From: a virus | Reading direction: 5' to 3' (one strand) | Length of the DNA stretch: 38,595 bases | Virus record (IMG/VR): IMGVR_UViG_3300048928_000623 | Span: 1 to 38,595 of that record | Part shown: piece after piece, positions 974 through 27,506 of the stretch | Position numbering within the stretch: the stretch's first letter is position 1 | Layout: each line of letters begins with the position of its first letter | Notes under the pieces: model-generated | Database searches by the model: none | The model's input: only the letters and a program-made list of their open reading frames with translations | Told to the model about the DNA's origin: nothing | Position numbers and translations under genes: made by a program

Positions 974-2948
974 GACCGCCTATCGGGAGTCGTGGCGGCC
1001 GCCCGATCGCCGCCCCATATACGAGTCGCTGAAGGACGACCTGGTCTTCGGCAACGAGTCCCCGTTCCCAGGAGGATTCGACATCAATAATTCGCCGTGG
1101 ATCAAGGAGCCGCTCGATAAAATCTCCGAGGACATTGTGAAGCGCGTGCTCGTCTCCGGAGGTGCGCAGCTCGCAAAGACGTTGCTGGGTCTGATCTTCG
1201 TCATCAGCTGCATCAAGCGGCGGCCGGGGTTGACGACCTGGAACGGACAGACCGACGACGCCATCAAGAAGATCTGCGAGGACAAGGCGTGGCCGCTCTT
1301 CCGGCGATCCAAAATGATCAACGAGCTGTTGCCTCGCGATGCCAATAAGCGGCGCATCAAGTCGATCGTCTTCCCGCATATGTCTCTGCGGTTTCAGTCG
1401 GCGAGCGAGAACAACGCCCACGGCGATACCGTGAAGAATCAGGTCAACGATGAGCGGCACCTTTGGCTGCCGGGAATGATTCACAAGTTCAAGAGCCGCG
1501 TGGGCAGTATGCCCGACCACAAGATCCTCGATCTCTCGACTGGCTCCGTGAAGCTGGCCGAGCAGTTCCTTGAGGACGGGACGCTGCTTGAGCTCGGCGA
1601 TGATTTCTTCAACGACTTCCACGCGGGTTCTCGGTCGATATGGTCTGTGCATTGTCCCAAGTGTGGAGATCAGCAGCCGCTGGTGATGACACACCGCGAT
1701 GCAAACAATCGCATCCTCCGCAATAAGAAGGGCGACCCGCAATATGGATTCGTGTGGGAGGACAACTCCACCACACGACCGGGCGGCCGATGGAACTATG
1801 CGGAGGTTGCCCGCACGGTCCGATGGCACTGTGTTCATTGTGGGCACGAGATCCCGGATTCGTATGACAACATCCTCGCGCTGAATTCTCTCGAGAATGG
1901 GGCGGGCTATGTTGTCACCAACACTCTCCACGATCCGGAGATCTGGAGCTACCGGTATCCCGCATGGGTATCGCCGATCGTAGGCTGGGGCACGATCGTG
2001 AAGGAATGGCTTCGCGCCCAAGAGGCCGCTCGCGCTGGCGATTATCTCGCGGTCAAGACCGTCATTCAAAATCGCTTCGCAGAGGCGTGGGACGAAAGCG
2101 TCACGCTTGGAGAGGACAGCAAGCCGACCGGCGATTACGATCTCGATAAGTGGAACGATGAGGAGGATCCGCGGTTCGCTGGCGGATGCCGAATCTTCAT
2201 GACCGTCGATCGCCAGAAAAAAGGCGGCACTCATTTTTGGATTCTTATCCGTGCGTGGAACGACGCCGGCGAGAGCCGTCTCATTGATTACCTGAAGGTC
2301 TTCTCCTGGGACGAGGTGGCCGCGAAGCAGGCCGAGTACAATATCCAAGGACACCGTGTCCTGGTCGACTCGGGAGACGAGACGGCCGAAGTGTACGGGC
2401 AGTGTGTGCTGCATGGATGGACAGCGCTGAAGGGCGAGGACGCCGAACATTTCAAGCATCCGAATCCACGCAACCCGAAGGAACCGATCCTGCGGTACTA
2501 CTCCCAGCCCACAAAGGGCGATCCTGTCCTGGGGAAGAGCGCGAGGAAGCTCGACCCCGCCGTGCGAAAGGCGATGTCAAAGCGACGGTACGCCAAGCTG
2601 TATCGCTGGGCGAGGGGACCGGTGCAGGATATCCTCGCGGCATTCATTTCCGGAGAGTCTCACTATTGGGGACGGGCGAAGATCGAACCTCAGCACTACG
2701 CGGATCACCTCGATTCGGAGGTGAAGAAGCACGTCCGGGATAAACGTGGCCGCGATCGTGCGATGTGGGTGCAGGTGAAACCGGACAATCATGCTCGAGA
2801 TCTGGAGGCCATGCAGGTCGCTGCGTTGTTGATGGCGCGGATCCTTCGCGGATCCATGGATGTCTCTGAGCAAGTTCCCAAATCGGGAACTCACGATATC
2901 GAGGAGAAGCTGCGTGCCGCCGTCAGAGCGTTGACACGGAAACAGTGA
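960..2948 (+). CDS. terL: Terminase large subunit (lambda GpA family)
   Basis: A 662-aa packaging ATPase-nuclease. A Walker-A-like loop is seen at about 66-74 (SGGAQLAKT) and a Walker B at about 162-165 (VNDE). A four-cysteine zinc-ribbon pair lies between them and the nuclease: CPKC near 232-235 and CVHC near 291-294. Acidic nuclease-type segments follow (TVDRQ and VDSGDET). The length matches lambda GpA (641 aa). The ATG at 960 is chosen because it overlaps the end of terS by 14 nt and precedes a natural N-terminus; the upstream in-frame stretch is a shadow of terS. The C-terminal region carries a GTTCCC-N5-GGGAAC palindrome at 2874-2890. Confidence 0.92.
   Translation: MTAIETAYRESWRPPDRRPIYESLKDDLVFGNESPFPGGFDINNSPWIKEPLDKISEDIVKRVLVSGGAQLAKTLLGLIFVISCIKRRPGLTTWNGQTDDAIKKICEDKAWPLFRRSKMINELLPRDANKRRIKSIVFPHMSLRFQSASENNAHGDTVKNQVNDERHLWLPGMIHKFKSRVGSMPDHKILDLSTGSVKLAEQFLEDGTLLELGDDFFNDFHAGSRSIWSVHCPKCGDQQPLVMTHRDANNRILRNKKGDPQYGFVWEDNSTTRPGGRWNYAEVARTVRWHCVHCGHEIPDSYDNILALNSLENGAGYVVTNTLHDPEIWSYRYPAWVSPIVGWGTIVKEWLRAQEAARAGDYLAVKTVIQNRFAEAWDESVTLGEDSKPTGDYDLDKWNDEEDPRFAGGCRIFMTVDRQKKGGTHFWILIRAWNDAGESRLIDYLKVFSWDEVAAKQAEYNIQGHRVLVDSGDETAEVYGQCVLHGWTALKGEDAEHFKHPNPRNPKEPILRYYSQPTKGDPVLGKSARKLDPAVRKAMSKRRYAKLYRWARGPVQDILAAFISGESHYWGRAKIEPQHYADHLDSEVKKHVRDKRGRDRAMWVQVKPDNHARDLEAMQVAALLMARILRGSMDVSEQVPKSGTHDIEEKLRAAVRALTRKQ
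2874..2890. repeat. GTTCCC-N5-GGGAAC palindrome, terL copy
   Basis: GTTCCCAAATCGGGAAC, with the dyad extending one base each side (A/T). It lies in the 3' part of terL, encoding QVPKSGT. The same 17-mer recurs exactly at 21202. Confidence 0.65.
2931..2936 (+). promoter_or_regulatory. TTGACA element at the end of terL
   Basis: GTTGACACGG in the last codons of terL, 11 nt before an ATG (2948) that overlaps the terL stop. It may belong to the start-linked set, but it is coding sequence and the ORF it would serve is only 32 codons. Confidence 0.3.
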
Positions 2949-3690: not shown

Positions 3691-5172
3691 ATGGCCTCCT
3701 ACCAACAGTTTCGCAAAGGTGGCATCTTCGTGCCGCAGTCCTATTCGCACTACTACGAAGCCGCGCGGCCGAGCCGGAAGCGGAAGTGGATGCCGATCCT
3801 GCAGCAGGACTCCGATAAAGTTCTGACGCCGAGTGTCCTGAAAACGCTGCGTAGTGGAGCCCGGCAGCTCTATACGAAGAGCGGATTTGTGCGGGGGGCA
3901 TTCCGCGACGTTTCTCGTTACTTGGTCGGCAACGATGGTATCCGACCGCAGTCCATGGCAAAAGACCAAGGCTGGGCTCGAGAGATCGAGGCGCGGTGGC
4001 TTAACTGGCTGAAGATCTCCGACGTCTTCCGAAAACTGCATTTCAATCAGTTGTTGCGCGCCAGTTCGCACGAGATGGATATCGACGGCGACTGGGGCCT
4101 TGTTCTCACGGAAACCGGAGGCGGCAACGATGCACCAGGCATGGCACAGATTCAGGCGGTGCGCGGCCATCGGATCGATGACGACGGGAAGGACGCGAAT
4201 GTTTTCGCTGGCGTCGTCAAAGATCGCAACGGCCGTGTAGCTGCGTATCGGATTCGTGCAGGTGCCGACGACGGGAAGTTTCGCGACGTTCCCGTATCGA
4301 GCTTTATTCTTCTCGGAGATCCGGACCTCACCGATTACACGCGGTATCCCTCGGCGATCGCGCATGGAATCAATCTCGTGGTCGACGCGAGGGATATTCA
4401 TGATGCGGTGATCGTCGGACTCAAAGCTAGGACAGGTCGTGCGATGGTTATCAAGACCCCCGATGGTCTCGCCAGCGAGGATGACTACGACAAGGACGAG
4501 GCCGATGCCGCAGAGCTTGGAGATCTCACGCTCGAAGAAATCGAAAGTGGTGAGATCCTGCGCTTGGGGCCGGGTGAGGAGATTCAGGAATTGGACTCGG
4601 CGTTTCCCGGTAACCAAGTCGAGCCGATGATGGAATTCTCCTATCGCGATTTTGCCCTAGGATATGGTCCGCCGCTCGAGGTCATCTACGGCAAAAACGT
4701 GGGGGGTCCGGCTCAACGGTTCTTCATTTCCAAATTCCAGCGAATGGTGGACGAGCGCCGCGGCCTCATCTACGTGCCCCGCCTGTGTTTTCCGCTGTGG
4801 GGATACTTCGTCTCGAAGGAGATGAAGCGAGGCGCAATCCCGTATAATGAGGATTGGTGGAAGGTTCGTTTCGTAGCCACCTCTCCAAAGGCATCGATCG
4901 ACTACGGTCGCGAAGCTCGAGAGAACCGAGAGGATATCATCCTCGGGTCTCGCACGCTCGAGGAAGATGCCGGCGAGCGTGGCCTTGACTGGGAAGAGAT
5001 GCGCGACCAGGTCGAGCGCGAAGCGGCTGATTTGCTCGTCCGCGCAAAAAGGCTCGCTTTGGAATTCGATATCGACCTTCCGCTTGCGATGAGTCTCATC
5101 AGCCGTCGTACTCCGAATGGAAACCTACCGACCGGCCCGGTCGAAAAACAGTCGACGCGGCCGCTCGAGTAA
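3691..5172 (+). CDS. Portal protein (lambda gpB family)
   Basis: A 493-aa portal protein, near the usual family length (lambda gpB 533). The N-terminus (YEAARPSRKRKW), the segment VRGAFRDVSRYLVGNDGIRPQ and the aromatic pair GWAREIEARWLNWLK are typical of this family. A later segment PPLEVIYGKNVGGPAQRFFI corresponds to the conserved region before the wing and crown. The product forms the ring through which the terminase packages DNA. The gene stands between gpW-like and protease genes, as in lambda. Confidence 0.92.
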   Translation: MASYQQFRKGGIFVPQSYSHYYEAARPSRKRKWMPILQQDSDKVLTPSVLKTLRSGARQLYTKSGFVRGAFRDVSRYLVGNDGIRPQSMAKDQGWAREIEARWLNWLKISDVFRKLHFNQLLRASSHEMDIDGDWGLVLTETGGGNDAPGMAQIQAVRGHRIDDDGKDANVFAGVVKDRNGRVAAYRIRAGADDGKFRDVPVSSFILLGDPDLTDYTRYPSAIAHGINLVVDARDIHDAVIVGLKARTGRAMVIKTPDGLASEDDYDKDEADAAELGDLTLEEIESGEILRLGPGEEIQELDSAFPGNQVEPMMEFSYRDFALGYGPPLEVIYGKNVGGPAQRFFISKFQRMVDERRGLIYVPRLCFPLWGYFVSKEMKRGAIPYNEDWWKVRFVATSPKASIDYGREARENREDIILGSRTLEEDAGERGLDWEEMRDQVEREAADLLVRAKRLALEFDIDLPLAMSLISRRTPNGNLPTGPVEKQSTRPLE

Positions 5173-21076: not shown

Positions 21077-21789
21077 TGGCTCTCGACTCCACCATTGTGC
21101 GCCGGATTCAATCCCGCGTCGGCGTTTCCCAGGACGGCATTCTCGGGCCAATCACCCTCACGGCGATCGATCTCGCCCTGACGCCGGCGGCGTCCTCGGA
21201 AGTTCCCAAATCGGGAACCGCCGCGAATCTCGATATCGGCGACCGCATCGTCGCGGTGGCCATTCGTTACCTCAATCTGGTCGAGACCCAGAGCAATGCT
21301 CAGTGGGATGATCCGAAGACCCCGGGTGTCGATGCTCGTGCATTGCAGATTCGGGCGGCGCTCATCGCCTCGGGTCACACCGACGGCGCACCGTATTGCG
21401 CGGCGTTCGTCGAAGCCATCTGGCGTCTCGCCTATGCAGAGGCGGGTGCGAGAGCGACCACGATCGCGAGGCTGACGAGTCTTCTTTGCCCCAGCGTCAT
21501 GACTTCATTCATGAACTGGAAGCGCGAGGGCCTCATCACGCAAACGCCAGTGAAGGGCGCGATTTTTTTCATGCAGAAGGGCGAGTCCTGGACCGGCCAT
21601 GCGGGCATTGTCCGCGCCGTAAAGGACGGATACATCGAGACGATCGAGGGAAATACCTCCCCCATGGCGGGGACACCCGAGGCGGATCGAAACGGCGACG
21701 GCATCTACGCCAAGCAGCGCCGCCTGCAGTTCACCATGAACACATCCGGTCTATGGCTGCGAGGCTTCCTGAATCCGATCACCCCGTGA
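21076..21789 (+). CDS. Endolysin, CHAP/NlpC-P60-type peptidase
   Basis: A 237-aa protein. Residues 8-35 resemble a single peptidoglycan-binding repeat (VGVSQDGILGPITLTAID). A cysteine peptidase domain follows: Cys108 in APYCAAFVEAIW as nucleophile, His175 in WTGHAGIV as base, and Asn193 in EGNTS as third residue. The spacing matches CHAP-type amidases or endopeptidases that cleave cell-wall peptides. There is no signal peptide, so release depends on a holin. The linker between the two domains carries a GTTCCC palindrome. Confidence 0.82.
   Translation: MALDSTIVRRIQSRVGVSQDGILGPITLTAIDLALTPAASSEVPKSGTAANLDIGDRIVAVAIRYLNLVETQSNAQWDDPKTPGVDARALQIRAALIASGHTDGAPYCAAFVEAIWRLAYAEAGARATTIARLTSLLCPSVMTSFMNWKREGLITQTPVKGAIFFMQKGESWTGHAGIVRAVKDGYIETIEGNTSPMAGTPEADRNGDGIYAKQRRLQFTMNTSGLWLRGFLNPITP
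21202..21218. repeat. GTTCCC-N5-GGGAAC palindrome, endolysin copy
   Basis: GTTCCCAAATCGGGAAC, identical to the 17-mer in terL at 2874. It encodes the VPKSGT linker between the wall-binding and peptidase domains. Confidence 0.65.
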
Positions 21790-24458: not shown

Positions 24459-24688
24459 GCGGGTCTCACGCGAGCGCAGTCGAAACCTCCGGACTTGCCT
24501 TGGACTTTAACGACCCACTGCCCGTGGCCGAGTTCCCAAGGCAAAGAGGTGAGCGTTGAAGCCAACTCCGAGCCATCGTCATTTCTGACGATGACCGGCT
24601 GGCCGATCTCGCGAAGCTTCTCGGCTGCCTCCTTTCCTTTGGCGATTTCCAATCGCATCCGCTGGCGCAAGCTGAAGGGTCGCCTCAT
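24455..24688 (-). CDS. Small basic hypothetical protein
   Basis: A 77-aa protein. A basic N-terminal helix (MRRPFSLRQRMRLEIAKGK) is followed by a small beta domain (PVIVRNDDGSELASTLTSLP). It starts inside the end of parB (ATGA) and is coupled to the next gene. The basic helix suggests nucleic-acid contact. A ParB-associated role is possible by position only. Confidence 0.5.
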   Translation of the reverse strand: MRRPFSLRQRMRLEIAKGKEAAEKLREIGQPVIVRNDDGSELASTLTSLPWELGHGQWVVKVQGKSGGFDCARVRPA

Positions 24689-26451
24689 TTGGCAGCGTCC
24701 TTTCCAGACGTCTGGACTTTCCAGGCGGGCGCTTTCACACCGAAGAATTTGCAGGCCTCGCCGAACCCATCACCCCAACCGCCTCCGTAGAGATTTGGCG
24801 AGTAGCGGGCAAACAACACCTCGAGGACAAATCCGCGGAGGATCTTTCCTGATGCGCTTTTCATCCGCTTCTCGATCTCGGTGTACATCACGTCGCGCTT
24901 GATGTCGGGAAACCGTCGCTTCGCTACCCTCCAGAGAGGATCCGCGACGCCCATCGACATAACCTCCCGGAAAAGAAACGACCAAACTTCAGGACTGTCA
25001 TTGCTCTCGCCCGCTTTCGCCGCAGTTACAAGTAGTCCGGCAAACACATTGCTCCGCTCTTTATGCTCCCGCTCCATCTTGACCTCGGATTCCGGGCGTG
25101 AGCTCTTCCGTTTCGTAACAGACTCTTTTGGTAGTGCAGCCCGTGCTTGTTCTTCGCGATACAAGATCACCGCGGTTCCGCGCTTTGGATGCTCCGCGAG
25201 GATTTCCGCAGGTGCTTTCTTGCCGAGTACTGCTTTCCAGGCACGCCATTGGCTGTCCGCCCTGCATGAACCGTCTACACGCACAAACCCCGACTTCTCA
25301 GTCAACTCGAGTGAGTGTTCGTCTCGGAATATTTTCCTGGCCTGTTCAATAGAAAGTACTTCGAGCCCCTTCTTCCGGAACTCATTGGCAAGTTCCTCGG
25401 TCTTCCTCCTCGTTTCGACGATGGCGATCGTTTCGTTAACCAGGTCTTTCGTGGAGCGATACGACATTAACGTCGCACGTTGAGCTAAGGTCAGGCCTGA
25501 GACGTCTTCCTCGTCTTCATCGATCCTGTCATATTGGTCCGCCTTCAAAACTTGTAGCGTCACCGCCTCAGCCGCAGCCAGGTCGGGAATCTTCGAGATC
25601 TGCGCGGCATGCGAAGCGGGGAGCCTTCCTTCCAGCGCGGCTTCACGTGCGATCTCCGGTAACTTCAGGAGCTTCATCCGTTCATAGATGAGCGACTTTG
25701 ATCGCTGCATCTTCTCCACAAGCAGTTCCATGGCGTCGGTATCGTTGAATCCTTCGCGGGTGTATTGCTCGAGCAACTGCTGATATTTCTCGGCTTCGTG
25801 GATCGGGTTCAGATCCTCGCGTTGGATATTCTCGACAGCCTGATCTTCGATAGCCTTCTTGTCGTCGGCCACGATGACAATTACTGGGCATTCGCGAAGC
25901 TTGCAGCCACTCGCCGCCCGCCACCGACGCTCGCCGGCTATGATCTCCCATTTCGGTTTGCAGTACTTCAACGCCAACTGCTCGGCATCGAATTTCGAGA
26001 GACCCTTTGCGACGACAGTCCCTCCGGACGAGCGGACCAGGAATGTGCCATCATTGCCCCAGCACGAGTACCCGGGGTTTTTGCGCACGATGAGAGGCTG
26101 GAGGATGCCGCGCTCGGCGACGTCCTCGGTCAGTTCCTTCAGCGCCTTCTGATCGAAGTGCTCGCGGTTGAACGGCGAGCGACCTATATCGATCGTCAGC
26201 ACGCGTTGAAAGCCCGCGCCAGATACGAGGTCCGATGCCTCCCTTTTCGAGAGGCTAGTGAGCTTATCCGGCGGCACACCAGCTCGCGCGGCGGCTTTCT
26301 TTTTGTAGTCCTCGAGATTCTCGAACGCCGCGCTAAGCGGCGATTGCTTTCCGCGATCTGGTGCGCTACTTGTTTTCGTGCTCTGCGAAGAGCTTGAGGC
26401 CGTTACCGTTGCTGGGGCGGCCTTCTTTTTTGGTGTGATTTTCATGTGCAT
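24685..26451 (-). CDS. parB: ParB/Spo0J-family protein
   Basis: A 588-aa protein. A disordered Lys/Ser/Thr-rich leader (1-40) precedes a ParB N-terminal domain (about 85-230). That domain has the CTP-binding-type motifs IAGERRWRAAS (171-181) and ENIQREDLNP (207-216), followed by an HTH (about 238-262, MQRSKSLIYERMKLLKL). The 300-residue C-terminal part is unique. A 40-residue insertion (about 126-168) splits the N-domain. I chose MHMKIT at 26451 rather than an upstream TTG inside the initiator gene. No parA lies in the window. The 3' end contains a perfect 14-bp palindrome. Confidence 0.82.
   Translation of the reverse strand: MHMKITPKKKAAPATVTASSSSQSTKTSSAPDRGKQSPLSAAFENLEDYKKKAAARAGVPPDKLTSLSKREASDLVSGAGFQRVLTIDIGRSPFNREHFDQKALKELTEDVAERGILQPLIVRKNPGYSCWGNDGTFLVRSSGGTVVAKGLSKFDAEQLALKYCKPKWEIIAGERRWRAASGCKLRECPVIVIVADDKKAIEDQAVENIQREDLNPIHEAEKYQQLLEQYTREGFNDTDAMELLVEKMQRSKSLIYERMKLLKLPEIAREAALEGRLPASHAAQISKIPDLAAAEAVTLQVLKADQYDRIDEDEEDVSGLTLAQRATLMSYRSTKDLVNETIAIVETRRKTEELANEFRKKGLEVLSIEQARKIFRDEHSLELTEKSGFVRVDGSCRADSQWRAWKAVLGKKAPAEILAEHPKRGTAVILYREEQARAALPKESVTKRKSSRPESEVKMEREHKERSNVFAGLLVTAAKAGESNDSPEVWSFLFREVMSMGVADPLWRVAKRRFPDIKRDVMYTEIEKRMKSASGKILRGFVLEVLFARYSPNLYGGGWGDGFGEACKFFGVKAPAWKVQTSGKDAAK
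24713..24726. repeat. Dispersed 14-bp palindrome, copy 5 (perfect, in parB)
   Basis: TCCAGACGTCTGGA inside the last codons of parB, encoding VQTSGK on the minus strand. Confidence 0.75.
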
Positions 26452-26465
26452 GGTTTGGTTGGAAA

Positions 26466-27506
26466 TTACGTGTTGGATGGTTTCTTCCCCGTGAGTCGGT
26501 CGTAACGATCGCGCAGCCAACTCCCGCGATTTCGGACCGCACGTTGATGCTGATCAGCGAGACGAAGACGCAGATCGGAGATGGCTTCCCTGACTTGAAC
26601 CGTGTTTGCACGGATCTGCTTGCGCCAGAATCCGCCCCAGTGGTCGACGCAGTCCTTCCCGCAGTACTGGGCGATGAGGGCGAGCAGCTCGCGCTCCGTT
26701 TCGGGTTTCGGCTTCAGCAGGGCAGTTCCCGAATTGGGAACCCGGCATTCAGTGACATTTATATGTGAAGCAATAGCTTCACATTTAGATGCATCTATAT
26801 GATGAGTTCCCGGAATGGGAACCGAGTTCCCGAATTGGGAACCGGAAATGGACCCCGCTCCCGTGAAGGGAACGGGGTTGCCCGAGGCCCTCGGATCCGA
26901 ATCACGGGGCGCATCCCACATTTCGGATTCTGCAAGGCTTTGGGCTATGCGCACGGATATGTCCGTGTGCGCGCTCCGGTCGCCGAGAGGGGTGAGCGCT
27001 GTGGATCCCTCTCTGGTGGTCCCGCTTTGAGCGGCAGGACTGGCGCTTCGTGAAAGCTCGACGCGGGCTTCACCAGCCATAATCGCGTCGAGATCAGGAG
27101 GCGGTTCTAACAAGTGCAACTGCTCAGGTTCGCAACGGGCTGCTTCCGCAAGCCACATTTCGATCCGATCAGCGGCGCGGGCGTGCGCTTCAGACGGAAA
27201 GATGGACCGGTAGGCCCACCTGGAGAAGTCCGGCTGGAAGATGTAACGCCCACCCCGACGATCGACGATGATCACGTTCCGCACCGCAAGTTCGGCAAGG
27301 ATCGTGGAGATGTTGCCTTTGCTGATACGCGTGATTTCTGCGATCACCTTGTCGCGTCCGAAGTAGGCGTGAGGCCGACCGAACGCGTAGCTGTAATCGA
27401 TGATGACGTCGCACACTCGGCGTTCGCGATCATTGAAGGCGAATCTCCGTAGTGCCCGACGGCATACCGCTGCGAGCTTTGGGTAGTCTGGTTCTTCTGT
27501 CGTCAT
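26466..27506 (-). CDS. Replication initiator, phage O-like
   Basis: A 346-aa protein. The N-terminal 100 residues form a winged-helix domain of the lambda O N-terminal type: RALRRFAFNDRERRVCDVII, then DKVIAEITRISKGNISTIL and a wing, GGRYIF. A long low-complexity linker (about 110-265) and a basic C-terminal domain (DHWGGFWRKQIRAN) follow. The gene's central part carries repeated palindromes and an AT-rich patch, as lambda O carries ori. It lies upstream of parB in the same operon. No helicase loader is recognised nearby. Confidence 0.72.
   Translation of the reverse strand: MTTEEPDYPKLAAVCRRALRRFAFNDRERRVCDVIIDYSYAFGRPHAYFGRDKVIAEITRISKGNISTILAELAVRNVIIVDRRGGRYIFQPDFSRWAYRSIFPSEAHARAADRIEMWLAEAARCEPEQLHLLEPPPDLDAIMAGEARVELSRSASPAAQSGTTREGSTALTPLGDRSAHTDISVRIAQSLAESEMWDAPRDSDPRASGNPVPFTGAGSISGSQFGNSVPIPGTHHIDASKCEAIASHINVTECRVPNSGTALLKPKPETERELLALIAQYCGKDCVDHWGGFWRKQIRANTVQVREAISDLRLRLADQHQRAVRNRGSWLRDRYDRLTGKKPSNT
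26725..26741. repeat. GTTCCC-N5-GGGAAC palindrome, origin copy 1
   Basis: GTTCCCGAATTGGGAAC, a perfect palindrome except for its centre base. Confidence 0.7.
26763..26784. repeat. 9-bp inverted repeat with AATA loop
   Basis: ATGTGAAGC-AATA-GCTTCACAT, in the AT-rich part of the candidate origin. Confidence 0.7.
26786..26797. repeat. 12-bp perfect palindrome
   Basis: TAGATGCATCTA, between the inverted repeat and the paired GTTCCC sites. Confidence 0.6.
26806..26822. repeat. GTTCCC-N5-GGGAAC palindrome, origin copy 2
   Basis: GTTCCCGGAATGGGAAC. It begins 20 bp before copy 3, about two helical turns. Confidence 0.7.
26826..26842. repeat. GTTCCC-N5-GGGAAC palindrome, origin copy 3
   Basis: GTTCCCGAATTGGGAAC, identical to copy 1. 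Confidence 0.7.
26857..26873. repeat. GTTCCC-type palindrome, imperfect origin copy 4
   Basis: GCTCCCGTGAAGGGAAC has one mismatch in the left half-site. It lies 31 bp after copy 3. Confidence 0.5.

Follow-up and report, generated by a model that had tools for sequence, protein, structure and literature searches.

The 38,595-base-pair (bp) stretch of viral DNA analysed here (IMG/VR record IMGVR_UViG_3300048928_000623; hereafter the window) carries on its minus strand, at 26466..27506, the gene for an O-like replication initiator of 346 amino acids (aa), and a candidate replication origin lies inside this gene. The product belongs to the Pfam family Phage_rep_O (residues 8-84, E=6.7e-7, scoring 30.2 bits where the cut-off is 28.7), and its matches in PHROG are O-like or DnaD-like initiators. 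AlphaFold predicts with confidence a winged helix at residues ~8-100, arranged helix-helix-strand-helix-helix-hairpin; it also places a C-terminal helical domain at ~271-338. Because the full model is weak (7 input sequences, mean predicted local distance difference test score (pLDDT) 65, predicted template modelling score 0.34), only the domain limits are taken from it. Within the winged helix, the recognition helix (residues 63-75; 27282..27320, minus strand; local pLDDT ~90) starts with K-G-N. Between the two domains pLDDT stays below 50 across residues 146-204 and 206-267, and the segment coding for this probably disordered linker (residues 146-267; 26706..27071, minus strand) holds four palindromes, which the first-pass annotation of this DNA had indeed assigned to the linker between the winged-helix and C-terminal domains.

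Three of the palindromes are perfect copies of GTTCCC-N5-GGGAAC and one is a near-copy, as that annotation had reported. Along the direction of transcription, a one-mismatch copy (GTTCCCTTCACGGGAGC, 26857..26873, frame 0, encoding VPFTGA) is followed by perfect copies at 26826..26842 (GTTCCCAATTCGGGAAC, frame 1, SQFGN) and 26806..26822 (GTTCCCATTCCGGGAAC, frame 0, VPIPGT) and, beyond an AT-rich element, by a third perfect copy at 26725..26741 (GTTCCCAATTCGGGAAC, frame 0, VPNSGT), all on the minus strand. Two of these iterons start 20 bp apart and had been placed on one helix face; the spacing is correct, but 20 bp amounts to ~1.9 turns and the shared face is approximate only. The AT-rich segment seen beside the palindromes, a candidate unwinding element at 26747..26806, proved to be less stable than any other 60-mer in a nearest-neighbour scan of all 38,595 bp (-70.4 kcal/mol against a mean of -89.4, standard deviation 4.2). 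By sequence reading, the element contains a stem-loop with 9-bp arms (ATGTGAAGC-AATA-GCTTCACAT, 26763..26784) and a 12-bp palindrome (TAGATGCATCTA, 26786..26797), both of which had been noticed earlier. Three iterons precede the AT-rich element on its 5' side, and the fourth site follows it; a similar bracketed layout, with iterons on both sides of AT-rich DNA, is found in L012 and L019.

The use of two frames by the perfect sites of the window (VPNSGT and VPIPGT in one, SQFGN in the other) hints that it is the DNA that is kept. In 20,000 synonymous recodings of the initiator gene with the codon usage of the window, at most one perfect site appeared, as against the three observed, and with the gene's own codon usage three perfect sites were reached in none of 3000 recodings.

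The same arrangement recurs in other viruses. When 2.9 million viral contigs were scanned blind for GTTCCC-N5-GGGAAC in two copies at most 30 bp apart, 18 records were returned, compared with a single record for a scrambled control palindrome of the same form. The pair lies inside the linker of an O-like gene in 14 of the 18 records (12 distinct genes); nine of the 18 have a Phage_rep_O match at E <= 0.001, and the O-like assignment of L006/L008, L009, L018 and L020 is based on alignment of the winged helix together with position. Iterons in the relatives mostly follow each other at steps of 20-26 bp. Among 48 O-like genes with arrays, 42 have a 60-mer from the least stable 5% of the gene at the last iteron or immediately 3' of it, and nine have one on the 5' side. 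The first-pass annotation had raised the question of whether the palindromes vanish in relatives; in those with a recognisable O-like initiator they recur, in the same linker, in all three frames and beside the least stable DNA of the gene.

These data also bear on a reading in which a protein repeat, VPxxGT, is under selection and the DNA palindrome is its by-product. VPxxGT, the product of frame 0, is the commonest reading of the sites: 62 perfect sites in 16 genes are divided 40/14/8 over frames 0, 1 and 2. However, this leaves 22 of the 62 in the other two frames, and recoding that preserves the protein loses the palindromes, the observed number of sites never being reached in any of the 16 genes. 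The protein-repeat explanation is thereby largely refuted and, in our judgement, barely credible. Conservation of palindromes rather than amino acids, which the annotation had proposed as a check, is what the use of all three frames and the outcome of recoding point to, and we conclude from the sequence that the sites are selected as DNA and not as protein.

GTTCCC-N5-GGGAAC also occurs in bacterial genomes. Matches from a bacterial-genome scan were considered as O-gene arrays and rejected, most of them being scattered repeats of Prevotella or Victivallaceae and not O genes. The repeats in L024-L108 (Prevotella, Bacteroidaceae, Victivallaceae) are tandem copies with steps of 22, 30 or 44 bp, both intergenic and intragenic, that are unrelated to O genes and by appearance form a family resembling repetitive extragenic palindromic (REP) elements. 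In three Azospirillum loci (L016, L041, L048), a gene that does not belong to Phage_rep_O contains two GTTCCC palindromes, with SRVGN, SRVGN and VPYAGT as readings in a linker; this gene possibly represents another initiator family on the same site. In a Calothrix brevissima plasmid (L064, 2711-3000), four copies at 39-bp steps or multiples thereof lie in a gene whose protein has a GSQIGN repeat. The palindromes of the window could accordingly be imagined as a REP-like mobile element that landed in tolerant protein linkers, given that in Prevotella and Victivallaceae genomes the same pattern forms scattered tandem repeats, frequently located outside long genes, and that two copies in the window lie within other proteins. 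Yet in the other site-bearing phages the copies are confined to one cluster (whole-record searches found no perfect copy outside it in the 18 other records), the palindromes of relatives differ in a manner that matches their own initiators, and the flanks of the two dispersed window copies are unrelated past 19 bp, so that we consider a mobile origin of the sites exceedingly unlikely.

The match between palindrome and initiator can be followed in Bacillota, where arrays of the same geometry have varied half-sites (GTTCCC, CTTCCC, GTTAC(T/C), CTTCT(T), GTTCTT, GTTATT, GTTGGT and GTTAGT). The comparison, over 96 columns of the N-domain, drew on Phage_rep_O genes of viral contigs and Bacillota genomes and covered 34 non-redundant genes of a single subfamily, leaving out the linker columns that the sites themselves encode. 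Bases 2 and 3 of the half-site are TT in 34 of 34 genes. The other bases fall into three rules: (i) base 1 tracks the residue that opens the recognition helix, with G for K or R and mostly C for others, (ii) base 4 follows the second residue, with C for N or Q, A for T, G or E, and G for S before D, and (iii) base 5 follows the third residue, with C for H or K, T for N and G for D. For each of these three bases the partner column ranked first of the 96, and the three partners adjoin one another at the beginning of the helix; base 6 has no helix partner of this kind. With relatives of at least 75% identity excluded, the helix residue predicts base 1 in 28 of 33 genes, base 4 in 30 of 34 and base 5 in 32 of 34, compared with 23, 19 and 22 when the prediction is taken from the nearest neighbour in the remainder of the domain. 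Those relatives of the window initiator that have K/R-G-N uniformly carry GTTCCC. Because bases 1, 4 and 5 track three consecutive residues of the recognition helix, we suggest that the palindromes are very probably read by the initiator encoded around them. The literature that we searched, which left most subscription journals out of reach, contained no earlier report of such specificity rules.

A site read by the initiator might still serve another end, namely as an operator for repression by the O-like protein or another regulator, with no origin function. Reading of a palindrome by a winged helix is what one expects of a regulator, and single sites are present in two other genes of the window. 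Nevertheless, the start of the initiator gene has no site, and arrays of three to ten copies deep in the gene, beside its least stable DNA, fit the lambda origin better than an operator; we therefore regard operators as very unlikely. A further possibility is that the ParB encoded next door (24685-26520), whose gene adjoins that of the initiator, uses the palindromes as centromere sites of the parS type; two further copies dispersed over the genome would be usual for parS. Against this, ParB_N scores above its cut-off in just two of 19 site-bearing records, which is not the co-occurrence expected of a centromere, and in relatives the palindrome covaries with the O-like helix. Moreover, a separate dispersed palindrome present in both the window and a relative (L220/L221) is a better parS candidate: TTCCAGACGTCTGGAA, of 16 bp and centred on ACGT like canonical parS, has seven dispersed copies in the window with at most two mismatches as against 0.21 expected, two of them perfect (846, 7685, 10804, 21025, 24702, 31753 and 34166, one inside parB). 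These copies are candidate parS sites of the ParB of this phage, and a centromere function of GTTCCC-N5-GGGAAC is highly improbable.

Among characterized systems, the locus most invites comparison with lambda. The lambda iterons ATCCCTCAAAACGAGGGA have the form TCCCTC-N5-GAGGGA, with steps of 20-24 bp in the middle of O, and thus share the 6-N5-6 layout of the window; a motif finder given lambda O recovered TCCCTC with spacer 5 unaided. In common with lambda and the Stx phages P27 and 933W, the window has a winged helix of the Phage_rep_O type, an initiator gene whose middle part holds an array of palindromic iterons, and AT-rich DNA 3' of the iterons (PMC5043065, PMC7466680), and the proposal that lambda places its iterons and unwinding region in the same part of gene O is sustained. 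Dimers of lambda O bind the inverted repeats and open the adjoining A+T-rich region (PMC5043065), and silent mutations of the iterons abolish replication from the P27 origin (PMC7466680). The window differs from lambda in its half-site (GTTCCC instead of TCCCTC), in the iteron beyond the AT-rich element and in its single sites in terminase and endolysin genes. Initiators of phages and prophages of Bacillota, mostly Paenibacillales (L010, L046, L106 and others), likewise have in-gene arrays of 17-bp palindromes, several with a site identical to that of the window; they differ in having a helix K-N-H rather than K-G-N, a shorter linker and their unstable DNA 3' of the last iteron. The iteron plasmids P1, F and RK2 are similar in having repeated initiator sites beside AT-rich DNA, whereas the sites of the window are palindromes inside the gene.

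Combining these observations, we suggest that the initiator gene in all likelihood contains a lambda-type replication origin. The candidate origin put forward by the first-pass annotation is supported by the recurrence of the array in relatives, its association with O-like genes, the unstable DNA beside it, the covariation of site and initiator in relatives and the cumulative GC-skew minimum, which lies at 26,073, ~0.7 kb from the sites, and has an amplitude reached in none of 2000 block shuffles. Several points weigh against this conclusion. The GC-skew minimum is confounded by gene orientation and suggestive only. None of the genes beside the initiator gene has a match to a P-like helicase loader, a further difference from lambda. 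The covariation statistics control for shared ancestry in part only, and the K-G-N helix of the window obeys the base-1 rule and breaks the base-5 rule, one of the two that are usable. Two of the five perfect copies in the window are outside the cluster and far from the candidate origin. Finally, no array of this form was found in 43 further O-like genes, showing that in-gene palindromes of 6-N5-6 layout are not universal in the family; some O-like genes lacking a spacer-5 array may use other spacers. One O-like gene (L141) contains four GTCCTC-N6-GAGGAC palindromes.

In the lambda-type model that we favor, we infer by analogy that the protein of this phage dimerises and binds the sites, that the DNA opens and the helicase is loaded, and that replication starts there. 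Dimers of the O-like protein would very probably bind the 17-bp palindromes, with one winged helix per GTTCCC half-site and contact made by the first residues of the recognition helix. Once loaded, the array would strain and open the adjacent AT-rich segment at 26747-26806, and the replicative helicase would be loaded at the opened segment.

The two sites outside the candidate origin are identical (GTTCCCAAATCGGGAAC, encoding VPKSGT) and were found by motif search, one in the terminase gene, at its 3' end (2874..2890), and one in the endolysin gene (21202..21218), the first-pass annotation having overlooked both; 19 bp are identical between them and the flanks are unrelated. The only terminase relative found (L220, 74% identity) has a site at the same place, with a one-mismatch copy at the matching position (3440) and a perfect copy 76 bp on (3516), both with a different spacer and falling in a stretch duplicated 76 bp apart. 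The L220/L221 relative has a third site (VPESGT) in the tail of another protein, the L221 site lying near 5111 on the reverse strand. All dispersed sites of this type in the window, L220 and L221 are in or beside tails or linkers of other proteins. In iteron plasmids, extra initiator sites outside the origin occur, for example incA of P1. We tentatively propose, as a rather doubtful extension, that the initiator may use the conserved single sites, notably that at the terminase 3' end, for copy-number control by bridging or titration or for coupling replication to packaging, and that the three consecutive helix residues may constitute a simple, transferable amino-acid-to-base code in the O family.

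With respect to its surroundings, the initiator gene has neighbours that match ParB and a HerA-like ATPase in Pfam or PHROG and one that encodes a 102-aa protein with no assignment. No solved structure matches the initiator or lambda O by sequence, and a fold search with the initiator gave weak matches at best (E >= 0.1), mostly to winged-helix regulators. Close relatives of the initiator were found neither in IMG/VR, in a single-protein search, nor among 50,697 phage records, and 388 Verrucomicrobiota genomes contained no relative detectable by Phage_rep_O or by profile A2. A sample of Gammaproteobacteria had Phage_rep_O in one genome only, a search with the L011 protein matched that protein alone, and scans of the whole window for Rfam families and transfer RNAs gave no matches.

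What the locus offers, for a phage not yet in culture, is a candidate origin that is both specific and minimal. As an origin it would be of a familiar kind, in a phage not studied before, and the support for it now goes far past the evidence available to the first-pass annotation; less expected were the single sites conserved elsewhere and what looks like a recognition code in the wider family. GTTCCC-N5-GGGAAC is a widespread class of iteron that is usable for finding the origins of temperate phages in raw sequence. Since the binding sites of each initiator lie in its own gene, the family preserves a natural record of how protein and DNA have evolved together, and the covariation within it yields testable rules of origin specificity such as that relating the third helix residue to base 5 of the half-site.
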